A DNA stretch of 48,422 nt from a virus: the IMG/VR virus record IMGVR_UViG_3300046171_000349, positions 1 to 48,422 of that record; one strand, given 5' to 3'. The notes under the pieces were generated by a model. That model did no database searches, was not told the origin of the DNA, and saw only the letters and a program-made list of their open reading frames with translations. The translations under genes and the position numbers were made by a program. This document shows, piece by piece, positions 4,522 through 31,750 of the stretch. Position 1 is the stretch's first letter. Each line of letters starts with the position of its first letter.

Positions 4522-5309
4522 GGGTTTTGCTTGAGGTAAGGCACCTCAGGTAGTTTCTTAACGACGTGCTTGTCGAGCGACCAACCATAGGCGAGGTTGC
4601 CAGGGTGGCGAAACTTTCGGAAGGTCGGCGAGACCCTTCGAACATACGCCTCACCCGACTCACCGTCTAGCGGAGCAGACGCACCTGCGCGGAGGAGCTG
4701 GTCGAGCGCGTAGTCCTTGCCCCGCTCACCTCTCCTGATCTTACCGAGTGATCGCGGTGACATCACGCGACCGTTAGGGAGCAGCATCAGCGTGGCGGGT
4801 GACCCGACCTGCCCGAAGTAAGACGCGTTGAGCGCCTTGTAGATCTGACCGATGTGTCCGGGCTTGATCACCTCCCCGTCTTCGCTCGTTCGAGCGATCG
4901 GGTCGGAGAACGACAGGACGAACCGGCTCCCCTTCTCGCGCTTGAGCAGCTTGAGCGCACGAGAGAGAAACCAGCTCTCCCCGTTGAACGCGACGTCATC
5001 TAACAAGACGAAGCGGCCGAGCTCAACGCCCTCGCTCGGTGTGATCTCCGCGTAGCGCGGGAGCACCTTCTGCGAGGCGGGCGTAGAGAAGATCGCGACG
5101 CCCACGAGCTTATCGTCACGTACGAGGCCCACGCGGAAGCGCGCGGCGGGGTACGTGCCGCTGTAGTGGTGGTGTGTCACGAAGGTCTTCGCGACCCTGT
5201 CCTGATCGATCACCACGACCTCGTACCGCGTGGGGTCGAACAGGGTGTGGAGAGGCGCCCACGTAGAGCGTTGATCTCGCCACCTCTGCTCGAATAGATC
5301 ACCCTGCAT
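4509..5309 (-). CDS. Mom-like GNAT-fold protein, putative DNA adenine modification
   Basis: A 266-residue protein resembling the phage Mu Mom family, which converts adenine in DNA to a carbamoylmethyl form that blocks restriction enzymes. Seen here: THHHYSGTYP (45-54), a strand pattern FRVGLVRDDKLVGVAIF (58-74) typical of GNAT acyltransferases, VELGRFVLLDDVAFNGESW (95-113), SFSDP (133-137) and PGHIGQIYKALNASYFG (150-166); the last two correspond to the conserved YADP and GHxGxIYxA segments of Mom-type proteins as I remember them. The C-terminal 90 residues are basic and may contact DNA. The start at 5309 has AAGGAA upstream and overlaps the preceding stop. Assignment is by motif recall, not search. 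Confidence 0.6.
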   Translation of the reverse strand: MQGDLFEQRWRDQRSTWAPLHTLFDPTRYEVVVIDQDRVAKTFVTHHHYSGTYPAARFRVGLVRDDKLVGVAIFSTPASQKVLPRYAEITPSEGVELGRFVLLDDVAFNGESWFLSRALKLLKREKGSRFVLSFSDPIARTSEDGEVIKPGHIGQIYKALNASYFGQVGSPATLMLLPNGRVMSPRSLGKIRRGERGKDYALDQLLRAGASAPLDGESGEAYVRRVSPTFRKFRHPGNLAYGWSLDKHVVKKLPEVPYLKQNPYAS

Positions 5310-7669: not shown

Positions 7670-7744
7670 CGCTAAGCGAGATATGGTGACCGTCCCGCTC
7701 CGCACGGAGCGTGCGCGGTGAACACCTATCTCTCTTAGCGCTAG
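7666..7744 (+). promoter_or_regulatory. Long interrupted hairpin in the thyX leader
   Basis: Five paired blocks nest perfectly: 7666-7676 with 7734-7744 (11 bp), 7678-7683 with 7727-7732 (6 bp), 7685-7688 with 7123-free bulge then 7723-7726 (4 bp), 7689-7692 with 7716-7719 (4 bp), and 7696-7702 with 7705-7711 (7 bp) closed by a CA loop. The outer arm covers the stop of the upstream gene and the first AG of the thyX AGGAGG. No T-run follows, so it is not an intrinsic terminator. A translational control element for thyX, or a processing site, is the simplest inference. The outer arms contain the palindrome TTAGCGCTA. Confidence 0.7.
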
Positions 7745-7752
7745 GAGGCTCT

Positions 7753-8436
7753 ATGCTCGCTATTTACCCTTACGGGGATGACTACGGCTGTGTCGCGAAG
7801 ATCAGCTCTACGGGTGATGACCGGACGGCCGTGTGCGCCGCCCGCGTCTCTTTTTTACGCGATGGTGATGATCCGGACGACAAGCGCGACGAGCGCCTCC
7901 TGCGCTTCATGATCAAGGAGGGACATACGTCACCTTTTGAGCATGCTGGGATCACTCTTAGGATCACATGTCCTATGTTTGTCAGGTCTCAGATCATGCG
8001 TCATCGTACGTTCTCGTTCAATGAGGTGTCGCGCAGATACACGTCAGAGGAGATCAAGGTCTATGTCCCCTCGGCGCTGCGTATGCAGTCTGAGAAGAAC
8101 CTGCAGTGCAGCGAGTCAGGGTCTCACATCCAAGAGGAGGCCGCTGTGATCGACGCGATGGATCAAGCCTTACAGGCGTCGCTGCGCGCTTACAGCTACT
8201 TGATCTATAAAGGCGTGTCGCGCGAGCAGGCGAGAGGCGTGCTCCCTCAGAACACGTACACGACGTTCTGGATGACCGGCAGTCTCCACAACTGGTTCAA
8301 GTTCCTCAAGCTGAGGCTCCATGAACACAGTCAGGAGGAGACGCGTCTGATCGCACAAGCCGCACTGACGATCATCCAAGAGGACTTCCCGCTCACGACG
8401 AGTCTCATGAAGGAGCTCGGTAAGCTGGAGGGCTAA
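7753..8436 (+). CDS. thyX: Flavin-dependent thymidylate synthase ThyX
   Basis: Converts dUMP to dTMP using methylenetetrahydrofolate with FAD and NADPH; cytoplasmic, usually a homotetramer. The 227-residue product carries the ThyX signature RHRTFSFNEVSRRY (83-96), preceded by HTSPFEH (58-64), which contributes to FAD and dUMP binding, and a C-terminal region with VLPQNTYTTFWMTGSLHNW. Length is in the normal 220-250 range. The start at 7753 has AGGAGG four bases upstream. It takes dUMP made by the dCMP deaminase at 4033. Translation may be controlled by the adjacent hairpin. Confidence 0.95.
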   Translation: MLAIYPYGDDYGCVAKISSTGDDRTAVCAARVSFLRDGDDPDDKRDERLLRFMIKEGHTSPFEHAGITLRITCPMFVRSQIMRHRTFSFNEVSRRYTSEEIKVYVPSALRMQSEKNLQCSESGSHIQEEAAVIDAMDQALQASLRAYSYLIYKGVSREQARGVLPQNTYTTFWMTGSLHNWFKFLKLRLHEHSQEETRLIAQAALTIIQEDFPLTTSLMKELGKLEG

Positions 8437-11908: not shown

Positions 11909-12757
11909 ATGGCTAAGCAGTACACGCTCAAGGAGAGACGCCTCGCGATTGTGCTGCTCGACATCATCGGATCAACCGCGTTCGTGCAGAAGGTGGGAGC
12001 GCTCAAGGCCGCGGAGTGGTTTCAATACCATGACACGCTCACCCGCCGCTTATGTATTAAGTACAGCGGGCGGGAGATCGACAGGAGTGACGGGTTCTTG
12101 ATGTCCTTTGAGAGACCTGTCGACGCGGTCAACTTCGCTCTGATGTACCAGAAGACGGTACCTAAGAAGACGAGGCTGGGCACACGCATCGGGATACACT
12201 GGGGTAAGGTCATCGAGGTCCAGCAGGATGAGCTCTGGCAGGCTGTCGGCGCGAAGAGCGTAGAGCTAGAGGGGATCGCGAAGAACATCGCGGCGAGGAC
12301 GATGAGTCTATGCGGCGCGGGTCAGGTACTCCTCACTGAGGAGGCGATGAAGGCTGCGCAGGGGAGGGTCAATCGCTTCACACCTGAAGGGACAAGGTAC
12401 GCGTGTGTCGGGTCTTATCGCTTCAAGGGCGTAGCTTCGGCGCAGACGGTGTACGCGGTAGGCCAGACCATCGAGTCTCTACAGCCACCGAAAGGCAGCG
12501 AGAAGGTTAAGCGTCTCGGAGGACCGCGTTATGTCAGGTCACGAGTTCGTGATCGAAAGATCATGGAGTGGGTCTGGTGGCTGACGTACCGGCTAGGCTT
12601 TGTCGCCCTTATATTCTGGCTCTACGTGTTTCATGGTCTCTGGAGTACGCAGTTCGGTCGCGATCTTCTCGGGATGCAGTACATGTGGTGGGTAGAGGAT
12701 CTCAACGCCTACATGTTAAGATTGTTTACGTTTATTATAGAAGGGGCAATCTTTTGA
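11909..12757 (+). CDS. Class III nucleotidyl (adenylate/guanylate) cyclase with C-terminal membrane anchor
   Basis: A 282-residue protein. Residues 11-185 are a class III cyclase catalytic domain: LLDIIGSTAF with metal-binding D18, REIDRSDGFLMSFE (55-68) with the second metal Asp D61, RIGIHWGKV (93-101), and AKNIAARTMSL (124-134) with N126 and R130, the transition-state Asn and Arg. All core catalytic residues are present, so it is predicted active; whether the product is cAMP, cGMP or a pyrimidine cNMP cannot be read. Residues about 221-245 are a strong membrane helix (WVWWLTYRLGFVALIFWLYV) and 255-282 a second hydrophobic region. Its stop overlaps the start of the two-TM gene. Such cyclases are common in bacteria and rare in phages. 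Confidence 0.85.
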   Translation: MAKQYTLKERRLAIVLLDIIGSTAFVQKVGALKAAEWFQYHDTLTRRLCIKYSGREIDRSDGFLMSFERPVDAVNFALMYQKTVPKKTRLGTRIGIHWGKVIEVQQDELWQAVGAKSVELEGIAKNIAARTMSLCGAGQVLLTEEAMKAAQGRVNRFTPEGTRYACVGSYRFKGVASAQTVYAVGQTIESLQPPKGSEKVKRLGGPRYVRSRVRDRKIMEWVWWLTYRLGFVALIFWLYVFHGLWSTQFGRDLLGMQYMWWVEDLNAYMLRLFTFIIEGAIF

Positions 12758-13236
12758 ACGAGAGAGAGACGAATGATTTATCCGAGAAAGCGAAGCGCGG
12801 CTGGTGGGCGAGCGTAGTCTTCATGCTGCTCATAGTGGCCTTGATCATCTTCCTAAGCTACGTAAAGATCGTAGAGGAGAACAGGGACATACTCATCGGC
12901 ATCATCGGGATGCTCACCGGAAGCATAAGCTCCATGCTCGCGATCGCGAGTGGACGGGACCCCAGCGAGATGGATGAGCTGAAGGGGAAGCTGTCTGACG
13001 CGAACGCTGACAGGCAAGCCTTGATCGCGAGGTTGCGTGACGCTCAGATACAGATGCAGCTACTACGCGAGCAGATCTTTGAGCTTCAGACATCCGTGAT
13101 CGAGAAGCTGTCCGTGTTCGTAAACGGGGAGAGGCCAATCAAGACAAGAGACGAGGGAGATGTTAGACTCCCTGACGTTGTAGAGGATTGGCTTCCCGTC
13201 AATCGAGAGACACATATAGACGAGGACGAGACATGA
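12754..13236 (+). CDS. Two-TM coiled-coil protein, holin-like or cyclase partner
   Basis: A 160-residue protein from TTG 12754 (AAGGGG seven bases upstream; TTGA overlap with the cyclase stop). Residues 17-39 and 46-66 are membrane helices (VVFMLLIVALIIFLSYV and ILIGIIGMLTGSISSMLAI). Residues about 70-115 form a coiled coil (DELKGKLSDANADRQALIAR). The tail is acidic. The small size, two membrane helices and location near the endolysin fit a holin. The strict coupling to a cyclase also fits a membrane partner of a nucleotide signal, but no cyclic-nucleotide-binding domain is visible. Confidence 0.6.
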   Translation: MNERETNDLSEKAKRGWWASVVFMLLIVALIIFLSYVKIVEENRDILIGIIGMLTGSISSMLAIASGRDPSEMDELKGKLSDANADRQALIARLRDAQIQMQLLREQIFELQTSVIEKLSVFVNGERPIKTRDEGDVRLPDVVEDWLPVNRETHIDEDET

Positions 13237-13790
13237 ATCACATGACACATACCGCGGGAGGACTAGAGGCGCGCATGGTTAAGCGTCAGCTCAAGGAGAT
13301 CTGCGAGATGGCAGAGGAGCTCTACTGCTGTCTCAACGATCATGACGATATCCATGAGTGGGTTCAGGTCAAGATGGCGACTATTCATGATCGCCTCAAC
13401 AGCGTACACTCGTACATGATGTACGAGATGAAGTACCCTAAAGATGAGCTCAGATTAGGTAAGTATGCGTCTGTTGAGTACAGAGGGAGGAGATTCCCTG
13501 GCTATAATCAGCCCATCGCGAGCGACCGACCTAACAAGAAGAAGATGGTGCTCGCCAAGAAGGGCGACCAAGTTAAGCTGATCCACTTCGGGCAGAAGGG
13601 ATACAAGCACAACTACTCTAAGAGCGCGAAGTCTAACTACCTCTCTCGGTCCGCGGGCATACGCAACAAGAGCGGCGGTCTGACGATGAACGATAAGTTT
13701 AGCCCTAACTACTGGTCGCGTCGCGTGCTGTGGCCTAAGAATCAAAGGGCTGATGGGAGCGCCGCGAACAAGAGGCGCCGAGGAGCTTAG
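13233..13790 (+). CDS. Conserved phage protein with C-terminal IHFGxKGY domain
   Basis: A 185-residue protein. The ATG at 13233 overlaps the previous stop (ATGA). Residues 15-65 are a helical region (VKRQLKEICEMAEELYCCL; HDRLNSVHSYMMYE) common at the N-terminus of small virion or neck-region phage proteins. Residues about 105-175 contain VKLIHFGQKGYKHNYS, YLSRSAGI, MNDKFSPNYWSRRVLW, a compact basic domain I have seen in several tailed-phage proteins without known function. The end is very basic. It converges with the metalloprotease gene, overlapping by 4 bases. Confidence 0.6.
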   Translation: MNHMTHTAGGLEARMVKRQLKEICEMAEELYCCLNDHDDIHEWVQVKMATIHDRLNSVHSYMMYEMKYPKDELRLGKYASVEYRGRRFPGYNQPIASDRPNKKKMVLAKKGDQVKLIHFGQKGYKHNYSKSAKSNYLSRSAGIRNKSGGLTMNDKFSPNYWSRRVLWPKNQRADGSAANKRRRGA

Positions 13791-14809
13791 ACGATTATGT
13801 TCTGGACTAACTCCTGTAGGTGGGGATTATTGTTAAATCGGTTCACAGCGTCCATCGCCTTGTTTCCGTAGTACGCGTTCACATTTCCTCTAAATGTCGG
13901 GTCTTTACGGTAGTGGCCTAAGAACTTGCGCGCTTGATGGTACGGCCCGTCCTTCGAGAAGTTGACCGCGTCTTCGGCGACGTTCCTCGCGCTCCTCGCG
14001 AATCCTGTCGTCGCTCTCTGGACATGGCGCGCTGCTGTCGTTACGCCTTGCGGCACAAACGCGGCGTCCTTCTCGTGCATAGGGAAGAAGACCGCGCCCC
14101 TGTCGAGAGACCGATCTCTGATCTTAGACCCTGTCCTCTTCTGTAAAGTCTTCTTATATTCTTCACGGGAGATCACGTCGCTGACGTGCGCGTGAGGAGG
14201 CGCGTAGTACGCCGAGGGTAATCCGCTCTTGATCGGCGTGTAATACTGGTCAGCTTTGAGGCCGCGTCTCTTCTTCATGCGGTTAATCGCCCGTACATCT
14301 CTTTTAGTCCCGCGTACATCGCTGAGGTCCCTCTTGATGCGCTTGTTGGTGATGTGCGTGTTGGCGAGTGACCCACCGAGTAATCCTGTAGCCGCGCCGA
14401 CGTTACCGGAGCCTATGCTACCCGACACGGCGGCTTTATTAAGCGCGTCGGTGACATACGAGCGGTACGCTGTCTTAAGCGACTTCTTCGCCTCCCTGTA
14501 CTCTGCGTCAGATAACTCACCATCCTCTTTCATCATCCTCAGCGCGTTCTTTGTCGCTTGGTGTTCCTCTACGAGTAATGGGAGAGACGCGAGTCCGCTC
14601 ACGCCTGCGCCGATTAGAGCGCCGCCCGCGATACCGAAGCGCGATCTACCTACGAGTCCTGCCACAGAGCCTATACCCATACTCGACGAAGAAGATACAT
14701 TAGGTCCGATACCTCTGAGCTTTGGATATCTTGAACGTTCTGCGTTCTCAGCGTGGCCGTATTCATGTAAACCTATAGCCACGTATCTTGGATCTCTTCT
14801 CTTACTCAC
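13787..14809 (-). CDS. YugP-like (Zn_peptidase_2) membrane metalloprotease, phage form
   Basis: A 340-residue protein. Residues 8-128 match the bacterial YugP/Zn_peptidase_2 core: YVAIGLHEYGHAENAE with zinc ligands H15 and H19 and catalytic E16, a Gly-rich membrane region (46-78), then LPLLVEEHQATKNALRMM with candidate third ligand E81 or E82, and the family pattern LSDAEYREAKKSLKTAYRSY. The usual N-terminal ~100 residues of YugP are absent; the start GTG 14809 is firm (AAAGGAGG upstream, after GATAAC). A second Gly-rich segment follows (128-150), then about 190 basic, phage-specific residues. Predicted to sit in the membrane and cleave envelope proteins. No experimental precedent for this form is known to me. 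Confidence 0.65.
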   Translation of the reverse strand: MSKRRDPRYVAIGLHEYGHAENAERSRYPKLRGIGPNVSSSSSMGIGSVAGLVGRSRFGIAGGALIGAGVSGLASLPLLVEEHQATKNALRMMKEDGELSDAEYREAKKSLKTAYRSYVTDALNKAAVSGSIGSGNVGAATGLLGGSLANTHITNKRIKRDLSDVRGTKRDVRAINRMKKRRGLKADQYYTPIKSGLPSAYYAPPHAHVSDVISREEYKKTLQKRTGSKIRDRSLDRGAVFFPMHEKDAAFVPQGVTTAARHVQRATTGFARSARNVAEDAVNFSKDGPYHQARKFLGHYRKDPTFRGNVNAYYGNKAMDAVNRFNNNPHLQELVQNIIV

Positions 14810-15268: not shown

Positions 15269-15778
15269 GTGTCAAACGACATCCCAGCGCAGCTCAGCGC
15301 TCTAAAAAAGCGATTGGCTGAAGACGCTGACGCCAAGGCGTGGTCAGTCTTATGGATCATCTCAGCGATCGAGCTGACCGCTATGATTTCGAAGTCTCAG
15401 GATATCGCGTATCTCGCGCTTGGCGCGATGCGTGATCCGGAGATCCGAAACATCGCGCCGAGTGTCTTTCGTAACCTGCGAGAGCTGGTGGAGGGCGAGG
15501 AGTCAGATATGATCGCGCCTTTGACTCCGTTCATGTCGCCTCAGTCAGACAGCACGAACGCACTGATCTGTGCGATCAGTGTGTATGTCACTCTCCTCGC
15601 GGAGATGGGCGAGGAGTCCGCCTTCCGTGACTGTTATGACGCGTGTATATGCGTCAAGCGCCCCACATCTAAGCGTGTACTAGGGTGGTTGCGAGCGGAG
15701 GGGGAGAGGCGAGGCCACGCGTGGCCCCCCGAGCGAGTGGAGCGTGACTATCCGGCGTTATGCGCTGAGTTAGTCTAA
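15269..15778 (+). CDS. Hypothetical helical protein
   Basis: A 169-residue, mostly helical soluble protein from GTG 15269. Sequence includes KKRLAEDADAKAWSVLWIIS, ELTAMISKSQDIAYLALGAM and a Cys-containing stretch FRDCYDACICVKRP. It is the only gene expressed from leader copy A before the convergent endolysin (9-base overlap). An immunity, anti-defence or regulatory role is possible only by position; no family recognised. Confidence 0.6.
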   Translation: MSNDIPAQLSALKKRLAEDADAKAWSVLWIISAIELTAMISKSQDIAYLALGAMRDPEIRNIAPSVFRNLRELVEGEESDMIAPLTPFMSPQSDSTNALICAISVYVTLLAEMGEESAFRDCYDACICVKRPTSKRVLGWLRAEGERRGHAWPPERVERDYPALCAELV

Positions 15779-16681
15779 AAAGACATCGTCCCACCAGCAC
15801 GCGATGTCCCACTTGCGGCTCGTGAGGTGGTGGTGGCCTAAGAGCGTGTACTGATCAGGGTCGGAGACGACCCCGTGGTGATCAGGCGCGCTCTCATTTA
15901 GCCCTAAGACGTCCATGAGGTCTCTCACGAACGCACGAGTCGCAGACGCGATGCGCGGCTCAAGTGAGAGGATGTTGCGGTTACCTCGATCTGTCGGGTT
16001 CTTGATCTTCTTGATGTTATAGCCTTGATCGATATAACGAGAGCTCCACTTGTATACGGGCTGTTGGCAGATGTCTACGCCCACAGAGTTCGTGTTGTGC
16101 TTACCTGCGTGCCACGACTTGTGCGCGAGGTCGATATACTGACACACGGTAGGTACACCTTCGATCAAACCGATACCGAAGTGCGTACTCACCTTGCGGT
16201 CAGGTACGTTCATCACCGCGTGGAGATGCTTCGGGTCTAGTCCGCCCCAGTGCATGATGACGCGGTCGATCCCTTGATTGCCCCACGGCGTGAAGTGCCC
16301 AGCTTCGTGCAGTGAGTATCCTTCGCTTTGATCAAAGTTGAGTACACGGTAGGGCGATCCGCTGCCTCCGATAGAGACTCTGCGTCCTCGCTCTACTACG
16401 TAGTTATCATGCGCCATGACTGGTTGAAAGCGAGAGAGGAGTCTGTGCCACGTCATTGGCCCGAGCTTACCGTCAGCGTTACGAGCAGCCTCGCCCATAC
16501 AGTCTACCTGAAAGGCCTTAACCGCTTGGTAGAACTTGATCGATGATAGCTCTTCTGCGAGGTCAGGGTACGCCTCTAACGCGCGGGATGGTATACCGCG
16601 AGGTCCGACAAGCTTCTCGGCTGTCGTGCTGTTGTACTTACACGCGCTTCTCGCGCTAGGAGATGAGTGCTGAGTTGACAT
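15770..16681 (-). CDS. N-acetylmuramoyl-L-alanine amidase endolysin with peptidoglycan-binding domain
   Basis: Endolysin that cleaves the MurNAc-L-Ala bond. Of 303 residues, about 45-85 fit a PG_binding_1-type domain (FYQAVKAFQVDCM; DGKLGPMTWHRL). About 135-297 are an Amidase_2/PGRP domain: VIMHWGG with H144, STHFGIG with H167, AHKSWHAGKHNTNSVGVDIC (186-205) and LGHHHLTSRKWDIACWW (281-297) with His, Lys and Cys in zinc/catalytic positions. There is no signal peptide, so release needs a holin (candidate at 12754). The start ATG 16681 is 10 bases past the end of the 955-residue gene upstream, likely one transcript. Confidence 0.9.
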   Translation of the reverse strand: MSTQHSSPSARSACKYNSTTAEKLVGPRGIPSRALEAYPDLAEELSSIKFYQAVKAFQVDCMGEAARNADGKLGPMTWHRLLSRFQPVMAHDNYVVERGRRVSIGGSGSPYRVLNFDQSEGYSLHEAGHFTPWGNQGIDRVIMHWGGLDPKHLHAVMNVPDRKVSTHFGIGLIEGVPTVCQYIDLAHKSWHAGKHNTNSVGVDICQQPVYKWSSRYIDQGYNIKKIKNPTDRGNRNILSLEPRIASATRAFVRDLMDVLGLNESAPDHHGVVSDPDQYTLLGHHHLTSRKWDIACWWDDVFLD

Positions 16682-16691: not shown

Positions 16692-19559
16692 CTAGCTGAT
16701 GGGGTAATTGTAAGGAGCAAAATTAGGAGTCTTAGCCCCCGCTTGCGATAAAGTCATAGGGACGCGCATATCACCTACAGCAGGAAGTTTAGGTCCTTGA
16801 GTGGAGAGTTGAGCGCCGGAGATACTTATCGGGTACATATCTTCCAGTTTATGGACTTGAGTGTTCGGGTTACTTAGGTTCGAAGGAGGGGTTTGATATC
16901 TTTGTTGAGTTGCTCTACGCGAAGCCGTGGGGGGAGACGTGGGGGGAGGCGTGGGGGGAGGCATGGGGGGAGGCGTGGTGGGAGGCGTGGGCGCAGAGCC
17001 TTGTCTCGGTGTGGGCGTTGTTTGCACAGGAGGTGTTGGAGACGCGGCATTTGCCGCGCGCTGCGCGTTAGCTTGAGTCTCCTTAAAACGGGTATAGCCT
17101 TCAGGATTTGTATACCTCATCTGCTGTGCGGCAGCGGCTTCGTCCATCACACCTGATTTAACCGCGCTGTCATACGCCTTTTGGATCTTTGCAGGGTCAT
17201 TAGTCGCGATTGCCTTCTCGAGATCTCCCATGAACTTGAGCTGCGCACCTGCGGTATTCACTTTACCTTCGAGGAGGCCTGCTCTTCTTAACCTTTCGGC
17301 TAATTGAGGTTGACTAGCTGCGTCTAGTCTAAGCTGAGTGAGCTGGTTCATGGTTAAGGGTTTACCGGTGACGGGATTGAGGGCCGCCCCTCCGCGACTC
17401 GATAAGACGAGATCGTCCGATAACTCCTTCACGCCCACGCCCATACGCTTAGCTAGCGTCTCGCGCGCCACTCTAGTGCCTCCCGCCGCACCTCCCGGCA
17501 ATAATTTACCCAAACCGCCTGTGAGCTTCGCGGCGCCGAGCCCCGCGCCCGCGCCAAGCATCGCCCCTGTCATGAACCCAGCGCCTCGGTTACCCTCCCC
17601 GCCCGCTAACGCGCCGATCGCGCCACCGCCGACCGCGCCGACAGCAGCGGCGGTCGCTGCCCCCGCGAACGCTCTCTTCTGCATCTCTAGGTTATCGATT
17701 TGAGCCATGACCGCGTCGATACGACCTCTCGCGCTTGACTCCTTAGACATGTAACCGCCCGCCGCACCGCCTGTGACTGCGAGGCCTCCGGCGACAGATA
17801 GGTCTTGCCTTAACGCTCCGCTCGAGATGTGACTTCTGAAGCTCTGTCCGGTCCTGTTCGCTCTATTAGCGAGCGATTGTATCTGGTCGCGTCTGCTCAT
17901 ACGACTAAACTCCTCTACGTTGAGCCCGAGCTCGCGGGCGCGTTCTAATCTTAAGGTCTCAGCGGTCTTACCGCCACGCGGCTTAACGATCATCTCGACG
18001 CCTTGGCCGAGACGCCTCCGCTTGCCGCCGATCGTGTTGAAGGCTTCGTTGACTGTAGTCTGCGCCTTACTGATATTAACATAGTCCGCGGTCACCGCAG
18101 CGTGACCCCGCTCGATGAGACCGCGCTTGATGTCCTCTGCGGGCCTCTCGATCTTCATGATCACGTCAAAGTGCGAAGGATCACCTGTGTGGAGAAGCTG
18201 AGACTGTTCTACGACAGTTCCGGGTTTAACTCCGCCCTTTGCCTTGATCGCGGCGTCGATGTTGACGTTGCCCGCCTTTAACGGGTTATACGAGATAAAC
18301 TCATCGAGCGACATACGCGCCGCGCCGAGTTCCTGCTCAATCGCACGAGCGAGAGATGACTTCCCGGAGCCTGTCGAGCCGACGACACCGATACGCATCT
18401 TCTTAATCTGCGCGGTCGTGTACCCTTGCCTCTTCAAGTCACGGATCATGCGACGCGCGTTCTGAACCGACGCTTCAGGTATCTTGCCGGAGATGTTCAG
18501 CTTAGCGAGCGCCTTCTCTTCACCGCTCGAGAACATCGTGTTGTACTTAGCCTTGAGGTGCGCTCTGAGTCCTGGGCGTCTCGCGAGGGTGATCGCCGCC
18601 GCCGCGCCTATCCCAAGCCCCGCGCCGATGAGCGCTTTCTTCTTCTGATCTCTGCTCAGCGCAGATGTCTTCTCTCTATATCCATACATAGCGCCTCCCG
18701 CCGTGCCCCCTGTGACCAACGCGGTGTCTGTTAATACTTTTCTGAGATTGAAAGAGTTCGTGATCCCGTAGGGCTTTATGATCTTACCTCTGTCAAGAGA
18801 CGCGAGCTGTTGAGCTTGGGTGAGCTTCTTAAACCGCTCAACGTCAAGCCCGAGCTCACGTGCTCTATTGAGCCTGCCTCTCTCGGATTGAAACCCGCCC
18901 TTGCCTCGTATCTTGATGTCTACGCCTCCGCGCGTTCTCACATGACGCCCGTTGAGCGAGTTAAAGCTCTCGTTAATCTCACCTTGAAGCGTCTTGTAGT
19001 CTATATAGTCCGTCTGGTGCGCGCCTTTACCGCGCTTGAGGATAGATCTTCGGACCTCATCAGCGTCTCTTTCGAGCTTAATCACTACGTCAAACTGATC
19101 CATATTAGACCCGTGAGGCATATGTGTCTGCTCGAGGACAGACCCTTGGGGGATATTTCCACCAAAGTTACTGTCGATGAAGTTTTGAGCGCGACGCCCC
19201 TTGAGGGAACTCTTCGCTTTATCTAAATTGATACTCTTGACGCCTAACTCTTTCTCAAGAGCTCGCGCCATTGTGCTCTTCCCTGTGCCCGGGGTCGCGA
19301 TGATGCCGACTTTAGCTTTTCGCGGATCAATGCCTGCTCTCCTCAGTGCGGAGCGTATGGCCTTAGCGTCTTGAAGAGCGGTTCTAGGTAACTCCGCGCT
19401 TGACGCGACAGCTCGCGATCCTCCCTTACCGATGCTCTTTACCTGGTGCGTCAACATCTTACGCAAGCCGGGACGTAGCGCGAGCACAGCGCCGGCGCCT
19501 ACCGCGAGTCCCGCTCCCGCTCCGATAACAGATCTCTTTAAGCGATCATCATTTGACAT
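16692..19559 (-). CDS. Membrane protein with two tandem P-loop kinase-like domains
   Basis: A 955-residue protein built from an internal duplication. Each unit has a Gly/Ala membrane helix ending ALRPGLRK or LARRPGLRA (about 9-32; 308-333), a P-loop NTPase domain (Walker A ATPGTGKST 88-96; GSTGSGKSS 394-402), an Asp ~17 residues later (D113; D419), EQ-H-(DPS)xxFDVxxKLER (143-164; 451-472), a basic R-rich helix, RARELGLxVExF (232-243; 540-551), and a second Gly-rich helix (280-292; 588-602). Offset is 306 residues. The fold resembles small-molecule kinases or zeta-toxin-like kinases. Then come Gly-zipper helices (629-680), a helical part, a Pro/Thr-rich linker (841-878) and a 75-residue tail. 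No known homologue recalled; substrate unknown. Confidence 0.7.
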   Translation of the reverse strand: MSNDDRLKRSVIGAGAGLAVGAGAVLALRPGLRKMLTHQVKSIGKGGSRAVASSAELPRTALQDAKAIRSALRRAGIDPRKAKVGIIATPGTGKSTMARALEKELGVKSINLDKAKSSLKGRRAQNFIDSNFGGNIPQGSVLEQTHMPHGSNMDQFDVVIKLERDADEVRRSILKRGKGAHQTDYIDYKTLQGEINESFNSLNGRHVRTRGGVDIKIRGKGGFQSERGRLNRARELGLDVERFKKLTQAQQLASLDRGKIIKPYGITNSFNLRKVLTDTALVTGGTAGGAMYGYREKTSALSRDQKKKALIGAGLGIGAAAAITLARRPGLRAHLKAKYNTMFSSGEEKALAKLNISGKIPEASVQNARRMIRDLKRQGYTTAQIKKMRIGVVGSTGSGKSSLARAIEQELGAARMSLDEFISYNPLKAGNVNIDAAIKAKGGVKPGTVVEQSQLLHTGDPSHFDVIMKIERPAEDIKRGLIERGHAAVTADYVNISKAQTTVNEAFNTIGGKRRRLGQGVEMIVKPRGGKTAETLRLERARELGLNVEEFSRMSRRDQIQSLANRANRTGQSFRSHISSGALRQDLSVAGGLAVTGGAAGGYMSKESSARGRIDAVMAQIDNLEMQKRAFAGAATAAAVGAVGGGAIGALAGGEGNRGAGFMTGAMLGAGAGLGAAKLTGGLGKLLPGGAAGGTRVARETLAKRMGVGVKELSDDLVLSSRGGAALNPVTGKPLTMNQLTQLRLDAASQPQLAERLRRAGLLEGKVNTAGAQLKFMGDLEKAIATNDPAKIQKAYDSAVKSGVMDEAAAAQQMRYTNPEGYTRFKETQANAQRAANAASPTPPVQTTPTPRQGSAPTPPTTPPPMPPPTPPPTSPPTASRRATQQRYQTPPSNLSNPNTQVHKLEDMYPISISGAQLSTQGPKLPAVGDMRVPMTLSQAGAKTPNFAPYNYPIS

Positions 19560-20043
19560 GGTGACTAGCCGTGTTCTGGCGTCTATTGTTTTGACTTCTC
19601 CTATAAGCGTTCCACTTGTCTGGGGTGTCTAGTTTACGTAAGTCGCCGAGGACTTGGTGGAGAGTCTTCACAGGAGTCGGCGACGGGATACGATCTATAG
19701 GCTGCGCAGACCCGACCTTCTCGTGGTCGTACTTACCACGAACGTCTCGGTTAAAGCTCTGGCCTACGCTGTCTGATGAAGACAATCGCCTATAAACAGC
19801 GGGAGGCACTCTCTTAAACTCGTAGATCCTCCCGTCATTGAACCTGACGAGGAGGTCGCCACCCGTGTACCCGATCTCTTTGATCATGGAGGACTTCACC
19901 TTCTTCATAGAAGGTTGAGTAGACTTGGCCTCGGGCTTGAGAAGCTTAGGCCCGGCTACCTGCTTAGCGAGGCCTTTACGCATCCTATACGTGAGATATC
20001 CGAGCGCTGCCCCTGCTCCTATACCTAGTCCAAGTTTACTCAT
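19549..20043 (-). CDS. KTSC-domain protein with N-terminal membrane segment
   Basis: A 164-residue protein. Residues 3-20 are a Gly-rich hydrophobic helix (LGLGIGAGAALGYLTYRM). Residues about 51-108 are a KTSC domain: SSMIKEIGYTGGDLLVRFND, GRIYEFKRVPPAVYRRL and SVGQSFNRDVRGKY. KTSC domains are small beta-rich modules common in phages and in lysyl-tRNA-synthetase-linked proteins; their role is unknown. The C-terminus is basic and polar. It overlaps the tandem-kinase gene by 11 bases and follows the PAP2 gene by 3 bases, so the three are co-translated. Confidence 0.75.
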   Translation of the reverse strand: MSKLGLGIGAGAALGYLTYRMRKGLAKQVAGPKLLKPEAKSTQPSMKKVKSSMIKEIGYTGGDLLVRFNDGRIYEFKRVPPAVYRRLSSSDSVGQSFNRDVRGKYDHEKVGSAQPIDRIPSPTPVKTLHQVLGDLRKLDTPDKWNAYRRSQNNRRQNTASHHVK

Positions 20044-20046: not shown

Positions 20047-21531
20047 CTAGCTCCTAGCGAGTCGGTCAAGGTTGGGTGTTTTGATGAGAGACGCTCTCTT
20101 CTCCCTACCCTCTTTGCGCTTCTTGTACGCATCTCCCGCCATTTTACCACCAATCGCGCCTCCCGCAACAGCGCCTACCGTGCTGAGCCCCATCGAGAGC
20201 GCGAAACCCTTACCTCCTAGTCCCTTTACTGACTGGATAGGTGTTTTAACGATCTCTTTTAAAGATTTACCTTCTAGGCTAGGGGCGTAGCCTAGCGGGA
20301 CAGCGAGTGCTGCTCCGCCCGCCATACCAGCAAGGTTACCTACCATTCCTCCAGTCGCTCCTCCGACACCACCGGCGGCTCTCTGCTTCGCATCCCCGCC
20401 CGCGACGTAAGCGCCTGTAGCCGCGCCGATGAGGCTCGCGCTCTTCTCTTGCGGCAGAGGACCCATGAGGTGCTCAATCAACGCCTTCGCGTATTGAACA
20501 TCGGATGGATAATGCACACCGGCCTGTATGCGCGAGAGGCCTACGCGTCTGCCGAGCTCTGTAAAAGCGGAAGCGTGTTCCGGGTATTGATCTGCGTAGA
20601 GCTTGCTCAACGCGAAACCCATCATGCTGTGACCGGAAGGGTAAGCTGGACTCTCCTCCGCGCTCTCGTCCATTGACTGTATATCCCCATCATAGTAAGG
20701 CGCGAGCTGGTACGGTCTAGGTCTTAAGAATTTGTACTTAAGGTACATCGCGATCTTGAGGACGTCCTGCGCAATGTCTTCTGCGATCTCGTCGATGGGA
20801 TCTAGCCCTAAATGCTCACACATACCGTAGAACACGTTATTTACGCTCTCGCTCGCGCTGTCTACAAACCTAGGGTCAAGCGGCTCCTTCTCCATCGTAG
20901 AGAGGATCATCTCTACCTCGCGCTTAGTCTCCTCGCCGTCGTTGGAGGGTGGTGGTACAAGCGGTAAGTCGTTAGGTCCAGCCTTGATGTACTTGTTCTC
21001 CCTGCGGATCTGATTGACGTAGTTAGACAGCGTGTCCGGATCGTGCTGAAGAGCGCGTACGCGGATCCTGACGTCTTCGAGATCGACGCTCGCGACCTTA
21101 ACAGAAGAGAGCGTCTTCGTCTCCGAGAAGCTGTGGCTGTTCGGGCCTCTCTTCTGGGATGCGCTGTAAGTCTCTCTGCGCCCACGATCTTTACCGCTCA
21201 ACACTTTAACGACTCTTACGTCATCGGGCTCCGCGTCCATCACGTCATACGTCACGTCATAACCAGGAGGTGACATGTCTTCACTGAGGACTGTGGCCAC
21301 GACGTGACGCGGGTTACCTCGACGACCTACGTCCTTCACGACGACGTAACCCCCACCATCAAGTCTAACATGGTGAGACCCGCGAGGGAGATGCTTGCCT
21401 CGTAGACCTTGGCGTACCGGCACTAGAGCTTCAGGAGGGAGAGACGTACGCTCTGCGAGTCGATCTTCGGGGTGGCCCGCGAGCTTTAAGAGCATATCAG
21501 CCAGTAACAGTGTTTCAGGTACGTAATGCAC
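20047..21531 (-). CDS. PAP2-superfamily phosphatase fused to Gly-rich membrane region
   Basis: A 494-residue protein. The start at GTG 21531 has AAGGAG seven bases upstream. Residues about 200-355 carry all three PAP2 signatures: K-x6-RP (K265, R272-P273), PSGH (298-301) and SR-x5-H-x3-D (S333-R334, H340, D344). PAP2 enzymes remove phosphate from lipid phosphates (for example undecaprenyl pyrophosphate) or related substrates. The N-terminal ~150 residues are a separate charged beta-rich part. After the catalytic domain come Gly-rich hydrophobic helices (about 366-465), and the end repeats KRASLIK. The catalytic domain itself lacks the six-helix hydrophobic plan of membrane PAP2 proteins and looks like the soluble, acid-phosphatase/haloperoxidase type. 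Confidence 0.8.
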   Translation of the reverse strand: MHYVPETLLLADMLLKLAGHPEDRLAERTSLPPEALVPVRQGLRGKHLPRGSHHVRLDGGGYVVVKDVGRRGNPRHVVATVLSEDMSPPGYDVTYDVMDAEPDDVRVVKVLSGKDRGRRETYSASQKRGPNSHSFSETKTLSSVKVASVDLEDVRIRVRALQHDPDTLSNYVNQIRRENKYIKAGPNDLPLVPPPSNDGEETKREVEMILSTMEKEPLDPRFVDSASESVNNVFYGMCEHLGLDPIDEIAEDIAQDVLKIAMYLKYKFLRPRPYQLAPYYDGDIQSMDESAEESPAYPSGHSMMGFALSKLYADQYPEHASAFTELGRRVGLSRIQAGVHYPSDVQYAKALIEHLMGPLPQEKSASLIGAATGAYVAGGDAKQRAAGGVGGATGGMVGNLAGMAGGAALAVPLGYAPSLEGKSLKEIVKTPIQSVKGLGGKGFALSMGLSTVGAVAGGAIGGKMAGDAYKKRKEGREKRASLIKTPNLDRLARS

Positions 21532-21754
21532 GCTTCTTCTCCTTGTGTTGTCTGTAGACAAGTGTTCCTGTGACGCCTACACCTACGCCCATAGCGATCA
21601 ACATCGCGGCTTGCGACTTAGAGATCTTATTCCCGCTCTTCTCCGCAGCGCGTTGAACCTTAGCGACCTGATTTCCCGATTTCGCGGAACTCGTGAGGTG
21701 ATCAACGTTTAAGCCGGATGATGTCTTTATCAAATAGTAATCAAAGCCGTTCAT
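21515..21754 (-). CDS. Single-TM small protein
   Basis: A 79-residue protein. The ATG at 21754 has AGGAAGGA five bases upstream. Residues 1-45 are polar with many Ser/Lys; 48-66 form a membrane helix (AAMLIAMGVGVGVTGTLVY); the tail is basic (RQHKEKKRA), suggesting N-out or an anchor. It is the first gene of the PAP2-KTSC-kinase-amidase operon and overlaps PAP2 by 17 bases. Confidence 0.6.
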   Translation of the reverse strand: MNGFDYYLIKTSSGLNVDHLTSSAKSGNQVAKVQRAAEKSGNKISKSQAAMLIAMGVGVGVTGTLVYRQHKEKKRALRT

Positions 21755-26088: not shown

Positions 26089-26797
26089 CCATCATCCTGC
26101 CTACGGCGTCAGCCGCTTCGTACGATGCGGACTTGACGTAGGCGTCGAGCGCGCGCTCTTGGTCGGAGGCTTTGTTGATGTTGATCGCGTCCTTGAGCTG
26201 GTACGCGCCATAACCGACACCTAGACCGCCTCCGATCAGACCGCCGACGAGCTGCTCCTTGCCGGCTTTGAACTGACCCGCTGACCCGTAAGCTTTAGAC
26301 TTACGAACAGCGTCGATGGCGTCGCGCGCCGCTTTGCCTTCAAGACCTGCGGACGCGAGGTCTTCGGCTTTGCGCATCGCGCTCAGCTGATCCGCTCTAT
26401 ATTCTTTTAGCCCTGATTTGAAGTCCTTCAAGGCTTGACCGCTCTCGGGCTTATATCTAATGCGGTTCTTACTCATGTACTCCTTCTCAAGAGCCTCGAG
26501 GCCTTCCTTGCGACCCTTAAACCCTGCGGGCACATTCTTGTAAAGTGAGCGAGCGCCTGCGCCCAAGAGGCCGCCGCCGACAGCGCCGAGAGCGGCGCCC
26601 GTGAGCGCGCCGTAACCCTCTTCACCCTCACGTGATCCCTTAGCGCCACGCGCGCCACCTACGATCGCGCCGAAGCCAGCCCCTGTGACAGCGGCCTTGT
26701 TGCCGAGGAAAGCGCTGACGCGATCACTCACGCCCGCGACCTTCTCCATAGCGACGCGTCGCGCGTGATCGCGAGCGAAATCCTCAAGCTGCTTCAT
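26054..26797 (-). CDS. Gly-rich membrane-segment virion-region protein
   Basis: A 247-residue protein at the 3' end of the virion module. Residues about 34-85 are two Gly/Ala hydrophobic helices (AAVTGAGFGAIVGGARG; GALTGAALGAVGGGLLGAG), and 183-203 a third (LVGGLIGGGLGVGYGAY). Basic helical linkers separate them. The end contains YVKSASYEAADAVGRMM, one of the K-S/T-A-S-F/Y motifs repeated in this phage. The pattern fits an internal or ejected virion protein that inserts in membrane, or a tail-associated protein; no family recognised. The start ATG 26797 forms TAATG with the upstream stop. Confidence 0.6.
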   Translation of the reverse strand: MKQLEDFARDHARRVAMEKVAGVSDRVSAFLGNKAAVTGAGFGAIVGGARGAKGSREGEEGYGALTGAALGAVGGGLLGAGARSLYKNVPAGFKGRKEGLEALEKEYMSKNRIRYKPESGQALKDFKSGLKEYRADQLSAMRKAEDLASAGLEGKAARDAIDAVRKSKAYGSAGQFKAGKEQLVGGLIGGGLGVGYGAYQLKDAININKASDQERALDAYVKSASYEAADAVGRMMASVSTDDGDFR

Positions 26798-27549
26798 TAG
26801 TCTTCTCCGATACTGTTCCCGAACGCACTAGGCAGCGTAGTGTCTAACGTACTCTGCACGAGGTCAACCATATTCGTGCGGACGGGTACGAGCCGCTCGA
26901 ACTGAATCTGGACCTGCTCTTGTACAAGAACGCCTTGGCTGTCTGTAGAGATCGCGTGTGTAGGGATCACGCAACCCTCAGCGTAGACAGCCCCGATCGT
27001 CTTCTCGTTAGAGTCGAAGGTCTTGATCAAGAGGCCGATAGGTTGACTAAACATGTCAGACGCGAGATTCAGGTAGAGGTTGTTATACCCAGGCCTGATC
27101 TTCACGTTGTGCTTGTTATAGCCGTTACCCGTCGTGTTGTTGTCGTTGTATAGACTCGCCGCTGTAGCCAACGCGTTAAACGGATTGACGGTCACGGGCG
27201 CGCTGAGGTCTTGGAATGAGGAGTACAGCGCGCGGAGGATTGAGGGCCCGTGATAGAGAACACGCCCTAACGAGATCTGGCCGACTGTTCGCCCGCTGAT
27301 GAAGTAGCTACGCTCCGAGCCGAGCTCGAACACGCGCGAGAACTGTCGATTGTGCGAGAGCGAGAAGTTCTGGATCATACCGATAGGGTATGTAAGCGCC
27401 TCACCTGCGAGGGCGCCGATCGGGCCCTCCAGTAGGCGTGGGGGTCCTGCCGCGATGAGGGTAAACGCACCAGACGCATATGCCCCATCCGGCATGCCTT
27501 GCTGCACGTACCGCTCATACGGTTTGAAGTCAAATGTGCCTGCTGCCAT
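26797..27549 (-). CDS. Putative tail tube / virion structural protein
   Basis: A 250-residue beta-rich protein directly downstream of the sheath region, where contractile phages encode the tube. It has GPIGALAGEALTYPIGMIQN, FELGSERSYFISGR and GRVLYHGPSILRALY, and a C-terminal VQEQVQIQFERLVPVRTN; even strands with Asn/Ser loops are typical of tube and structural proteins. No firm family match by eye. The start ATG 27549 follows a good AGGAG (AAGGAGTAAACC). A baseplate or completion role cannot be excluded. Confidence 0.5.
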   Translation of the reverse strand: MAAGTFDFKPYERYVQQGMPDGAYASGAFTLIAAGPPRLLEGPIGALAGEALTYPIGMIQNFSLSHNRQFSRVFELGSERSYFISGRTVGQISLGRVLYHGPSILRALYSSFQDLSAPVTVNPFNALATAASLYNDNNTTGNGYNKHNVKIRPGYNNLYLNLASDMFSQPIGLLIKTFDSNEKTIGAVYAEGCVIPTHAISTDSQGVLVQEQVQIQFERLVPVRTNMVDLVQSTLDTTLPSAFGNSIGED

Positions 27550-28330: not shown

Positions 28331-31300
28331 TTATACGAAGATCGTGACTTTGATGTAGTTGGCGGGATAGAGGACGCCGACGTTAACGTCGATACGCATT
28401 GTATCAGGCGCGTCAGCGTCTTGCTCGGCGCGCGTGATGTTAGCGCTCGCGAGCAACCCGTTGTTGACAGCGCCCTGACAGATGATATCCACAATCGTAG
28501 AGGTGTCGTCGATGTATGTCTGCGTGATATTGAACAGACCAACTCTACCCTTGAGCGCAGAGCGCAGCTGCTTAGCGAAGAAGTCTACCGCCTTGATGAT
28601 GCTATACTCGCGCGTCTCGAGGGCGTCAGGTGCGGTCGTTGACTGGATACGGATCGAAGGCGCCATACCTGCTGACTCCACCTCGATCACGCAGTTACCA
28701 GCGCTCACGATGTCGAGCTGATCGCTAGTCAACCCAAGGTCAGCGACGTTCGTAAATCCGTCCATACTCCGTCGTGAGAACGGAGTCTCTGCGTTGAGGT
28801 CAGCGGTCTCACCCGCGATCGCGCACGCATAAAAGTACATAGGGATTGACTGCTCGATGCCTCCGATCACGCTCTGGACAGAGTCTGGGAAGAGGCGTAG
28901 CTGTCTGCGGTTATTATACTGCTGAGCGCGGTCGCGTACAGTCGTGGCGATCGCCTGACGATCCGCGATGTTGGTGCCAGGGAGCAAGAGCTTAGCGCCT
29001 CTTACGAACAGGCTGTACTTAGCGTCGCTGAAGCTAGACGCGATCGGCACCGCGCTGTAGTACCCGTCACTGTTGGGCATGCCTGACACACGAACAGTGA
29101 CCATAGAGCCTGAGATCGCAGACACGCTGTAGTGCCGCGTCTCATCACCGATCTCGATCTGAAGAACGACCTCACGGCGATCTTCAAGTACCGCAGGGAC
29201 AGGCAGAGATGGGTCAATCCCATTACCGTCTGCCGCCGCTTCGATGCCTCCGTCGTTAAGGTCGACGAGGTTCGGAGTGTTACTGTACTCAGCGGACTCG
29301 CCTGAAGAGAGCACGATGCTGTTCCTCCGAGTAGGTACAGGAGGCGCGGAGATCAAGACGCGCTCACGCTTCGCCTCCGGCGCGCTCATGTCTGTAACGT
29401 GCTGATTGAAGATGCCGATGACCTCTTCGCTGTGCGTGAGCGGCGCGACCGCGTATACCTCGTGAGCCTCGATGAACTCCGCCGCGCGCATGTATGCGAG
29501 CGCTGTGCCCTCAGGCTCTGATGAGCTTACGTCGTCGACACTGATCGCTGACACGGTCACGCCGTCTCCTGCGTTGAGCATCGCGTAGTAGATACCTAAT
29601 GATAGGGGATTTCGTGTGTCTACAGGAGAGAGCTGAGTAGTGAGGTCGTTAACGTCCGAGATCTGTAGCAGACCTGGGCTGATCGCTGAGGTAGATAGGT
29701 CTAAGCGCAAGCCTCGGTACGCGATGCCTACGCCGATCTCTCCGATCGCGACAGGACTCAGAGGAGCGCCTGTGCGTTGATTACGGATGATCTGCGCGCC
29801 GATGCTCACGATGCCTGTAGGGCTGACAGAGACGTTAGGGTTAGGTCGACCTGTGCCTGTTGCACTCTGAGCCCCGAACCCAAGAGGCGCGAACGCTGAC
29901 ACCGTGATCGCTGATGATCTACCTACCAAGCTCGATGAGAGCGTGAGGGTAGTCACAACGCCGACAGTAGCCACGCTCGCGAGCGTGTAACCTGCCTCGA
30001 GGTTGATCGCGTCGATGAGGTCGTTGACGAGTTGACCGCCTACGCTGACGCTGTACTCATACTCATTATCGTCGAGCGTCCATGCGAACACAGCGTCTGC
30101 CACGTTGAGCGCTCCGTTGGATGTGAGGTTGCTTCCGTTTTGTGAAACCTCTGCGGCGCCTGACCCCGTGATGAGATAGTTCGCGTTGAGCGCCGTAGAT
30201 CCATCAGCCGCGCTGAGGAGTGTGATGCCTTGATCCGCGCCGGTCGCGATCGTCTCTACGGTGATGGTCCCGCCTGCCTCTGATACGGTAAACAGCTGCG
30301 CTTGACCTGAAGCCGCGATCTGGTTGTTCATCTCGACCGCGAGGTCTGCGGCGTTATCGTCAGTGCCGTTAGGGAAGACGAAGGTGAAGTTACTCGTCGT
30401 GGAGCCTGACTGAGAGGTCTGGACGAGTAAGGCGAGGCCTGAGAGGTCAGCAGCGGCTGCGATCGTAAACGTGACAGACGCGGTGGACGCGGCGTCCACG
30501 GAGCCTGAGATGTCGATACCTACGCTCGCGTTGACTGTGCCGTCGAGCTCTTGAGCGCTGAGCTCGTTCGCGATGAAGTATGCGTGCTTAGGGCTGAAGT
30601 CACGCGTGAGCGCCACGCGGGTATATACCTGATTGATGATACCGCCCTCAGCGTTATATTGGCTGTTCGCGCTGTCTACAGTGCCGACCTCGATCGAAGA
30701 AGGCAGGATGCTGAGCACTTGCCCGAGCTCTACGCCGTCTACGACGAGCACATCACCGTTTCGCGTAGGCAATGCCGCCTGAAGGTTGAGGTCATCAAAC
30801 GTAGGGAATGGCGGGAGCGTCGCGACATAGGCGGAGTTTGCCGTACCGTCCCAGCGCACTGGTAACCAGGCAGGTCGACCGCTGTCAGCATTTCGGGGCC
30901 CGCCCTCATAAATCGTTACGTCGGAAACGGCATCCACGTCAGCGTCTCCGAAGTGAAAAGTGCCGGAGCTCACCTCGATCTTAGTCGTCGTTGAACGTCC
31001 CGCAGAAGGTGACGCGTACAGCCCGCTCCCTACGACGCGCATGTCGTGGATCACACGATCAGCTGGATTGAGTTCAGCGAGATTATCTCCCCCGATAAAC
31101 CCCTCAAATGACTCCTCTTTGATCGTGATGAAGGCGTTCGGGTTGTAACTCGCGGACACATCAGGGAGCGCGATGTAAAACGCATACTCAGAGGCCGGAG
31201 TATATAGAGAGGCGGAATCTACACCGGCTGCGATAAACTTCGCCACGACGTCCGCGACAGACTCACCCGCGGCGATCTGTATGAGCCGAGCCTGGTTAAT

Positions 31301-31750
31301 GCCGGTGCCTGTCAGCCTAACAGTGTACGCACGCATAAATTCAGACGCGCCATCGACTACGCCAGCACTTCTTATAAAGATCGCAGGTCTGTGCGCGGGA
31401 GGTAAGCTGTCGAGGTACGCGCTCTTCGCGTCTGGATCGAGGTTGATCACATCGCCGTTAGCTCTGAAGAGCGCCGCGCTGATCTCATTGGTCAGACCGG
31501 AGACGGACACCTCGTTGATGTCCGCGTGGTTCGTCCTGAAGCTCGACGGCGAGACCGAAGACGCTTGTTGGTCATACAAGAAACTAGAGATCTGACTGGC
31601 GGGGTTCGGTGCGCCATCGACAGTCGTCTCCATCACTTCAAAAGCAGGTCCCACAACGCAGGGCGCGAGTGTAGGTACTACTGCAGGGGTAGGGGTGGTC
31701 GAGATCACCTGAGTGATCTCTACGCCAGGTTTACGAATTAGATCCGCCAT
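28331..31750 (-). CDS. Contractile tail sheath protein, unusually large
   Basis: Forms the contracting outer tail cylinder. The 1139-residue product has the typical sheath N-terminus RKPGVEITQVISTTP and VVPTLAPCVVGPA (VG-P motif) and the C-terminal sheath core: REYSIIKAVDFFAKQLRSAL, RVGLFNITQTYIDDT and the closing strand PANYIKVTIFV, which join neighbouring subunits. In between is a long Ser/Thr/Ala-rich region (about 380-660) of Ig-like look that makes it larger than common sheaths (usually 400-700). The chosen start ATG 31750 has GAGG seven bases upstream; GTG two codons earlier overlaps the previous stop. Confidence 0.9.
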   Translation of the reverse strand: MADLIRKPGVEITQVISTTPTPAVVPTLAPCVVGPAFEVMETTVDGAPNPASQISSFLYDQQASSVSPSSFRTNHADINEVSVSGLTNEISAALFRANGDVINLDPDAKSAYLDSLPPAHRPAIFIRSAGVVDGASEFMRAYTVRLTGTGINQARLIQIAAGESVADVVAKFIAAGVDSASLYTPASEYAFYIALPDVSASYNPNAFITIKEESFEGFIGGDNLAELNPADRVIHDMRVVGSGLYASPSAGRSTTTKIEVSSGTFHFGDADVDAVSDVTIYEGGPRNADSGRPAWLPVRWDGTANSAYVATLPPFPTFDDLNLQAALPTRNGDVLVVDGVELGQVLSILPSSIEVGTVDSANSQYNAEGGIINQVYTRVALTRDFSPKHAYFIANELSAQELDGTVNASVGIDISGSVDAASTASVTFTIAAAADLSGLALLVQTSQSGSTTSNFTFVFPNGTDDNAADLAVEMNNQIAASGQAQLFTVSEAGGTITVETIATGADQGITLLSAADGSTALNANYLITGSGAAEVSQNGSNLTSNGALNVADAVFAWTLDDNEYEYSVSVGGQLVNDLIDAINLEAGYTLASVATVGVVTTLTLSSSLVGRSSAITVSAFAPLGFGAQSATGTGRPNPNVSVSPTGIVSIGAQIIRNQRTGAPLSPVAIGEIGVGIAYRGLRLDLSTSAISPGLLQISDVNDLTTQLSPVDTRNPLSLGIYYAMLNAGDGVTVSAISVDDVSSSEPEGTALAYMRAAEFIEAHEVYAVAPLTHSEEVIGIFNQHVTDMSAPEAKRERVLISAPPVPTRRNSIVLSSGESAEYSNTPNLVDLNDGGIEAAADGNGIDPSLPVPAVLEDRREVVLQIEIGDETRHYSVSAISGSMVTVRVSGMPNSDGYYSAVPIASSFSDAKYSLFVRGAKLLLPGTNIADRQAIATTVRDRAQQYNNRRQLRLFPDSVQSVIGGIEQSIPMYFYACAIAGETADLNAETPFSRRSMDGFTNVADLGLTSDQLDIVSAGNCVIEVESAGMAPSIRIQSTTAPDALETREYSIIKAVDFFAKQLRSALKGRVGLFNITQTYIDDTSTIVDIICQGAVNNGLLASANITRAEQDADAPDTMRIDVNVGVLYPANYIKVTIFV

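Follow-up and report, generated by a model that had tools for sequence, protein, structure and literature searches.

Kinase-like domains of the zeta type have been described as fusions to phage MuF proteins, and are also present in proteins presumed to be transferred together with the DNA (PMC5512222). Among the literature on virion P-loop kinases and ejected proteins with tandem kinases, only reviews of polyvalent proteins and of jumbo phages were found to be relevant. The protein described here is made of parts of known kinds; however, we found no description of tandem P-loop units combined with virion-type Gly/Ala helices. It is encoded by a 48,422-base IMG/VR virus record, a linear fragment that was analyzed over its full length (hereafter the window) and probably belongs to a large myophage genome. 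The structural genes of the window are distant kin of those of Salmonella phage Arash, Vibrio phages D69 and D181, and Bacillus phage G, with closer kin among uncultured viral contigs recruited via the ORF at 36137-37294. We favor, with a probability of roughly 40% for the reading as a whole, a late-type, virion- or membrane-associated tandem kinase that acts on a small molecule.

An old tandem duplication within one reading frame

The ORF runs intact on the minus strand from 19559 to 16692, while the plus strand across the same interval is riddled with stops. A 955-residue protein had been annotated here, and a single open frame of that size is present, on the minus strand. Its N-terminal portion comprises two repeat units and its C-terminal 345 residues contain a glycine zipper followed by a proline-rich linker, laid out as follows:

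16692..19559, minus strand: tandem P-loop protein, whole ORF, 955 amino acids (reading frame)
18669..19559, minus strand: repeat unit 1, residues 1-297 (alignment; BLASTP of unit 1 against unit 2)
17730..18668, minus strand: repeat unit 2, residues 298-610 (alignment; BLASTP against unit 1)
17520..17675, minus strand: C-terminal glycine-zipper segment, residues 629-680, with GxxxGxxxG runs (hydropathy and composition)
16920..17039, minus strand: proline-rich linker, residues 841-880 (sequence)

Residues 4-291 and 303-603 are homologous, with 34% identity over 283 amino acids, and BLASTP of residues 1-298 against 299-620 returned 147 bits (E 1e-46). The local alignment of the two units, a check proposed with the initial annotation for residues 1-300 and 300-610, gave a raw score of 434, far over chance (mean of 44 and maximum of 70 in 500 shuffles). 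The tandem duplication of one P-loop unit is thus confirmed. At the DNA level the two units can be aligned over a 34-base patch only; therefore, the duplication is old, and neither a recent event nor a product of assembly. A third copy was considered and rejected, as none is present in residues 611-955.

The initial annotation had placed matching motifs about 306 residues apart, and every landmark it named recurs at a spacing of 306-308 residues. The offset is 306 for the Walker A motifs and for a pair of aspartates that each lie 19 residues past the Walker lysine, and 308 for the FDVxxKxER and RARELGL stretches:

19275..19298, minus strand: unit 1 Walker A, ATPGTGKS, residues 88-95 (motif)
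19221..19223, minus strand: unit 1 Asp113, candidate substrate or general-base Asp after strand 2 (alignment; putative role)
19068..19094, minus strand: unit 1 FDVVIKLER, residues 156-164 (motif)
18846..18866, minus strand: unit 1 RARELGL, residues 232-238 (motif)
18357..18380, minus strand: unit 2 Walker A, GSTGSGKS, residues 394-401 (motif)
18303..18305, minus strand: unit 2 Asp419 (alignment; putative role)
18144..18170, minus strand: unit 2 FDVIMKIER, residues 464-472 (motif)
17922..17942, minus strand: unit 2 RARELGL, residues 540-546 (motif)

Two further elements common to both copies had been overlooked, namely VLEQ at 141-144 with its counterpart VVEQ at 449-452, and an RxxxxxRG element read as RRSILKRG at 170-177 and KRGLIERG at 478-485. 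Conservation between the units is highest in the Gly/Ala helix and RPGLR, from Walker A through the next helix, and in the RARELGL stretch. Since Walker A, the Asp, VxEQ, FDVxxKxER, RxxxxxRG and RARELGL have all been kept despite an overall identity of only 34%, both sites appear to be under selection. The same retention of the Walker A Lys and Ser, the Asp and the RG pair in both diverged copies speaks against a nucleotide-binding pseudo-enzyme, in which the P-loops would bind ATP just to stabilize a duplicated scaffold. In favor of a pseudo-enzyme, both units close strand 3 with EQ, and the catalytic base and any activity are putative; overall, we regard this reading as improbable.

A separate observation concerns the motif x-K-x-A-[SAG] (e.g., EKTAS, VKLAS), which is enriched in the window (34 occurrences against 20 +- 4.5 in shuffles) and in a relative, G006 (89 against 50 +- 6.5), mostly in virion-type ORFs. 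It is concentrated in ORFs whose positions are scaffold-like or protease-like, and the ORFs carrying it lie on the minus strand at 20047-21561, 33575-34582, 37956-38309, 40753-41964, 42006-43874 and 44512-45309. The motif could be a prohead-protease or virion-targeting site. In the tandem P-loop protein itself K-x-A-[SAG] was not found, and only S variants occur, at the unit borders: EKTSA (residues 296-300) and SKESSA (605-610), which mark the unit ends. One might speculate that these are processing sites releasing three proteins; with S variants only, cleavage of a polyprotein at the unit borders stays speculative.

Fold and family of the repeat units

Both Walker A motifs named in the initial annotation conform to GxxxxGK[ST] and are intact, with A as the first residue in unit 1, and it is near certain that the units are P-loop NTPases. 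All of the Pfam names attached to the protein (AAA_18, AAA_33, PRK, Zeta_toxin and others) hinge on the surroundings of Walker A, to which PADLOC matches are confined as well. Whole-protein scores are inflated by the summing of two copies; single units were scored separately, and their matches span at most about 50 residues around Walker A. The kinase-type profiles AAA_18 and AAA_33 match near Walker A in both units. Over stretches of about 40 residues, unit 1 alone scored 28.1 against AAA_18 (PF13238), below the cut-off of 29.4, and shikimate kinase (SKI, PF01202) reached 13.8, below a cut-off of 22.1. Unit 2 alone passed the cut-off for PRK/uridine kinase (PF00485; 24.7 versus 22.0), its best stretch covering only profile positions 2-42 of 196; unit 1 was not listed for this family in the single-unit search. 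No other Pfam domain was found in the C-terminal part, and the chain has two copies of one domain.

An AlphaFold model of unit 2, for which the input alignment held unit 1 as the sole other row, has a low-confidence mean pLDDT of 58; over the P-loop core, block means range from 55 to 87. Most of its top VIA-align rows are shikimate kinase, AK6/Fap7, adenylate, gluconate and uridine kinases at Z 6.0-7.6 over 117-156 aligned residues, in a range (Z below 8) where a score can reflect mere arrangement. Foldseek and VIA-align together place shikimate kinase, AK6/hCINAP/Fap7, adenylate, gluconate, pantothenate and uridine kinases high. The unit 1 model (pLDDT 58, pTM 0.46) matched unrelated folds and did not reproduce the kinase ranking. 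The structure search suggested for each P-loop domain thus groups unit 2 with kinases (at Z of 7.6 or less and pLDDT 58) but not unit 1. Given a ranking that is nearly homogeneous and thus suggestive, and a model that is weak, the units probably belong to the small-molecule-kinase class of P-loop proteins.

Zeta toxins carry an Arg at position +3 after the strand-2 Asp (Asp-x-x-Arg). In the present protein this pattern is absent, the corresponding stretches being D113KAK in unit 1 and D419EFI in unit 2, with Lys or Ile at +3. Of the two folds offered by the initial annotation, zeta-type or small-molecule kinase, the latter holds up as the best guess, and a zeta assignment of the units is unlikely. 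It would make the protein a toxin-like kinase acting on UDP-amino sugars, a reading to which we give little credence. The Zeta_toxin profile (PF06414) does pass its cut-off of 22.3 with the whole protein (24.7 bits), where the two copies add up; however, unit 2 alone reached 20.3, its match being confined to positions 8-59 of the 199 in the profile, about the first quarter, unit 1 was not listed, and the genome search gave 19.6. A phage zeta-domain protein also ranked third in a viral fold search (probability 0.99, TM 0.28), and MuF fusions supply a phage precedent for zeta-like domains (PMC5512222). Zeta toxins were not among the best 50 solved entries for the unit 2 model, which excludes nothing.

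A different possibility is that the P-loops serve no small-molecule substrate and instead bind or hydrolyze ATP to power a conformational change or a channel in a tail or DNA-ejection protein. The glycine-zipper helices, the proline-rich tail and the position of the gene after those for the sheath, the tube and a Gly-zipper ORF all agree with this, as do the weak matches of unit 1 alone to AAA+ Walker A regions (VCP-like ATPase, E 0.0033). However, the AAA profile PF00004 remained under its cut-off of 21.2 with both units (19.1 for unit 1 and 15.6 for unit 2), and a canonical AAA+ Walker B (hhhhDE) was not found where strand 3 closes with VLEQ or VVEQ. Since the FDVxxKxER...RG stretch and the unit 2 fold ranking favor kinases, we consider an ATP-binding ejection component unlikely.

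Membrane helices, operon and relatives

Each unit is flanked by Gly-rich helices, the first of which the initial annotation named a membrane helix:

19476..19532, minus strand: unit 1 first Gly/Ala helix, residues 10-28, Kyte-Doolittle 1.92 (hydropathy)
18681..18734, minus strand: unit 1 second Gly-rich helix, residues 276-293, weakly hydrophobic (alignment and hydropathy)
18582..18638, minus strand: unit 2 first Gly/Ala helix, residues 308-326, Kyte-Doolittle 1.65 (hydropathy)
17745..17801, minus strand: unit 2 second Gly-rich helix, residues 587-605, Kyte-Doolittle 1.01 (hydropathy)

For the first helix of each unit that claim is plausible, as both are moderately hydrophobic over 19 residues; the second helices are marginal, that of unit 1 averaging below 1.0. 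Each kinase-like domain may sit within a membrane hairpin, and if all four helices do insert, both domains would share one side of the membrane. Virion-type ORFs of this phage and of related ones repeatedly contain Gly/Ala-rich segments of a similar kind and, by analogy, the tandem P-loop protein is likely virion- or membrane-associated.

The gene belongs to a tightly packed operon close to the block of virion genes and shares its strand with the sheath, tube and other virion-type genes:

20047..21561, minus strand: PAP2-domain protein, operon member (Pfam PF01569, 3.7e-10)
19549..20043, minus strand: KTSC-domain protein overlapping the tandem P-loop ORF (Pfam PF13619, 8e-15)
15770..16681, minus strand: N-acetylmuramoyl-L-alanine amidase (Amidase_2), downstream of the tandem P-loop ORF (Pfam; relatives in two other contigs)
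28331-31756: sheath-like ORF (position, size and relatives; no profile match)
26797-27549: tube-like ORF (position, size and relatives; no profile match)
36137-37294: ORF taken as the major capsid protein (position, size and relatives; no profile match)

As the initial annotation had it, PAP2, KTSC, the tandem P-loop ORF and the amidase form one co-directional operon, with successive gaps of 3, -11 and 10 bases. Undecaprenyl pyrophosphate and other lipid phosphates are among the possible substrates of PAP2 enzymes. For the PAP2 protein of the window, acid phosphatase PhoC is the top NCBIfam match, far under the cut-off. Its Gly-rich C-terminal stretch of roughly 80 residues is missing from the orthologue in the syntenic relative G005, which points to the gain and loss of Gly zippers as modules.

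The 133.5 kb G005 contig, with a capsid ORF that is 82% identical, carries PAP2 and KTSC downstream of the tube gene. Immediately after KTSC it has thyX-like and deaminase genes, matching 7711-8436 and 3883-4521 of the window, and neither a P-loop gene nor an amidase is present there. Because it is missing from this matching place, the tandem P-loop gene looks accessory rather than a core part of the virion, and because G005 has PAP2 and KTSC without it, the partnership is not obligatory. Relatives of the amidase were identified in two other large viral contigs (L047 and L048). Neither has a PAP2, KTSC or P-loop counterpart within 8 kb of the amidase, and the P-loop protein is absent from the whole of both records. 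The kinase-phosphatase gene pairing is not conserved.

These comparisons bear on the possibility that the protein is an unpackaged late kinase, associated with the membrane of the infected cell and engaged in host takeover or lysis timing with the adjacent PAP2 protein and amidase. The compact operon and the substrates open to PAP2 enzymes suit such a role, whereas the grouping is not conserved in G005 or in either contig with an amidase relative. Overall, we would not expect this alternative to hold.

Broader searches agreed with the initial annotation that no phage protein of such design has been described, in that no relative emerged from the collections searched. With tblastn, no homologue was found among about 50,700 phage records, and 72,600 plasmids returned only matches to ATP-binding proteins, of about 57 residues at E 0.6-0.8. 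Neither the protein nor the repeat alignment found a true homologue in IMG/VR viral contigs or GTDB genome contigs, scans that relied on a few short peptide patterns. The degenerate DNA patterns for FDVxxKxER and RARELGLxVE listed no homologue, nor did they list the window's own record, which such scans may leave out. In related records, several of them fragments and with no positive control, protein and profile searches found no repeat-unit homologue. Three candidates were set aside: a viral-contig match (L002) that is an unrelated AAA ATPase gene, a weak match in cyanophage Syn1 (E 0.7) whose matched stretch lacks Walker A, and a match in G005 (E 0.006) that falls on the Gly-zipper segment and was taken as compositional. 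The gene thus appears to be accessory or fast-evolving.

Several other features of the window merit mention. A Zn_peptidase_2-like ORF (13787-14809, minus strand) with HEYGH and a Gly/Ala helix is a possible processing enzyme, and a Mom-family DNA-modification protein is encoded at 4509-5309 (minus strand; Pfam PF25680, 5e-24). On the plus strand, 11909-12757 encodes a putative class III adenylate/guanylate cyclase domain (7.8e-5, narrowly over the cut-off) with a C-terminal hydrophobic helix, and a membrane ORF with two helices (12568-13236) comes next; it would be unusual for a phage to encode a membrane cyclase. The large-terminase-like gene (45903-47674, minus strand) is split among three frames. 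In contig G001 the corresponding stretch is read in a single frame, and compared with it the window has one additional base near 47188 and another near 46725; the extra bases may be assembly or sequencing indels or a real disruption.

A proposed role and its closest counterparts

In the tandem kinase that we favor, two domains of the shikimate kinase/AK6/NMP-kinase class would each be preceded by a Gly/Ala helix and followed by a weaker one, with the glycine zipper and then the proline-rich tail completing the chain. The protein would most likely be packaged in or assembled onto the virion. Upon contact of the Gly/Ala helices with the cell membrane, both ATP-binding domains would come to lie on the same side and may then, as infection begins, phosphorylate a small metabolite of the host or the envelope. 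The motifs conserved in both copies, the kinase profiles, the unit 2 fold ranking and the MuF-zeta precedent (PMC5512222) argue for a kinase. Against it, or against a place in the virion, stand the pLDDT of 58, the mismatch of the unit 1 model, the short profile matches and the missing gene at the G005 locus, to which the barely hydrophobic second helices and the lack of K-x-A-[SAG] may be added.

A cell-wall-precursor or lipid-phosphate substrate is a guess drawn from the neighboring PAP2 and amidase genes, as in the initial annotation. In its most elaborate form, a virion-delivered, membrane-tethered tandem kinase family would join with the PAP2 phosphatase to reset the phosphorylation of lipid-linked or cell-wall precursors at entry or lysis, which we consider very unlikely. 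If both domains are active, membrane-anchored kinases, the phage would carry an ATP-dependent envelope enzyme, an activity rarely shown for virion proteins, and two diverged copies in one chain would offer a test of whether paired sites serve one substrate or two. If inactive or soluble, the protein would be an ordinary orphan of a poorly sampled phage lineage.

Among described systems, zeta toxins and the zeta-like domains of polyvalent and MuF proteins (PMC5512222) share with the present protein a P-loop kinase-like domain, a gene near virion genes and, for the whole chain, a score over the Pfam cut-off. The protein may work like an injected effector. However, its units are under the cut-off and have neither DxxR nor MuF, and the chain lacks the disparate enzymatic domains that define polyvalent proteins (PMC5512222), among which it is not filed here. 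The Gly-zipper virion-type proteins of large myophages resemble it in the Gly/Ala helices that it shares with neighboring virion-type ORFs, but the relatives' Gly-zipper ORFs examined contain no convincing Walker A. Turning to cellular kinases, the PRK/uridine kinase family (PF00485) is matched over its cut-off by unit 2 and likewise closes strand 3 with an acidic residue, whereas the match is confined to one end of the profile and to one unit. The shikimate kinase/AK6 (Fap7, hCINAP)/adenylate kinase class is alike in its GxxGxGK[ST] P-loop, the Asp after strand 2, a hydrophobic strand 3 with an acidic end, the FDVxxxL...RxxxxxRG stretch and the unit 2 model ranking. The single units are under the Pfam cut-offs of this class and, unlike its members, the phage protein has the domain twice, together with Gly/Ala helices, and continues into a long C-terminal tail.
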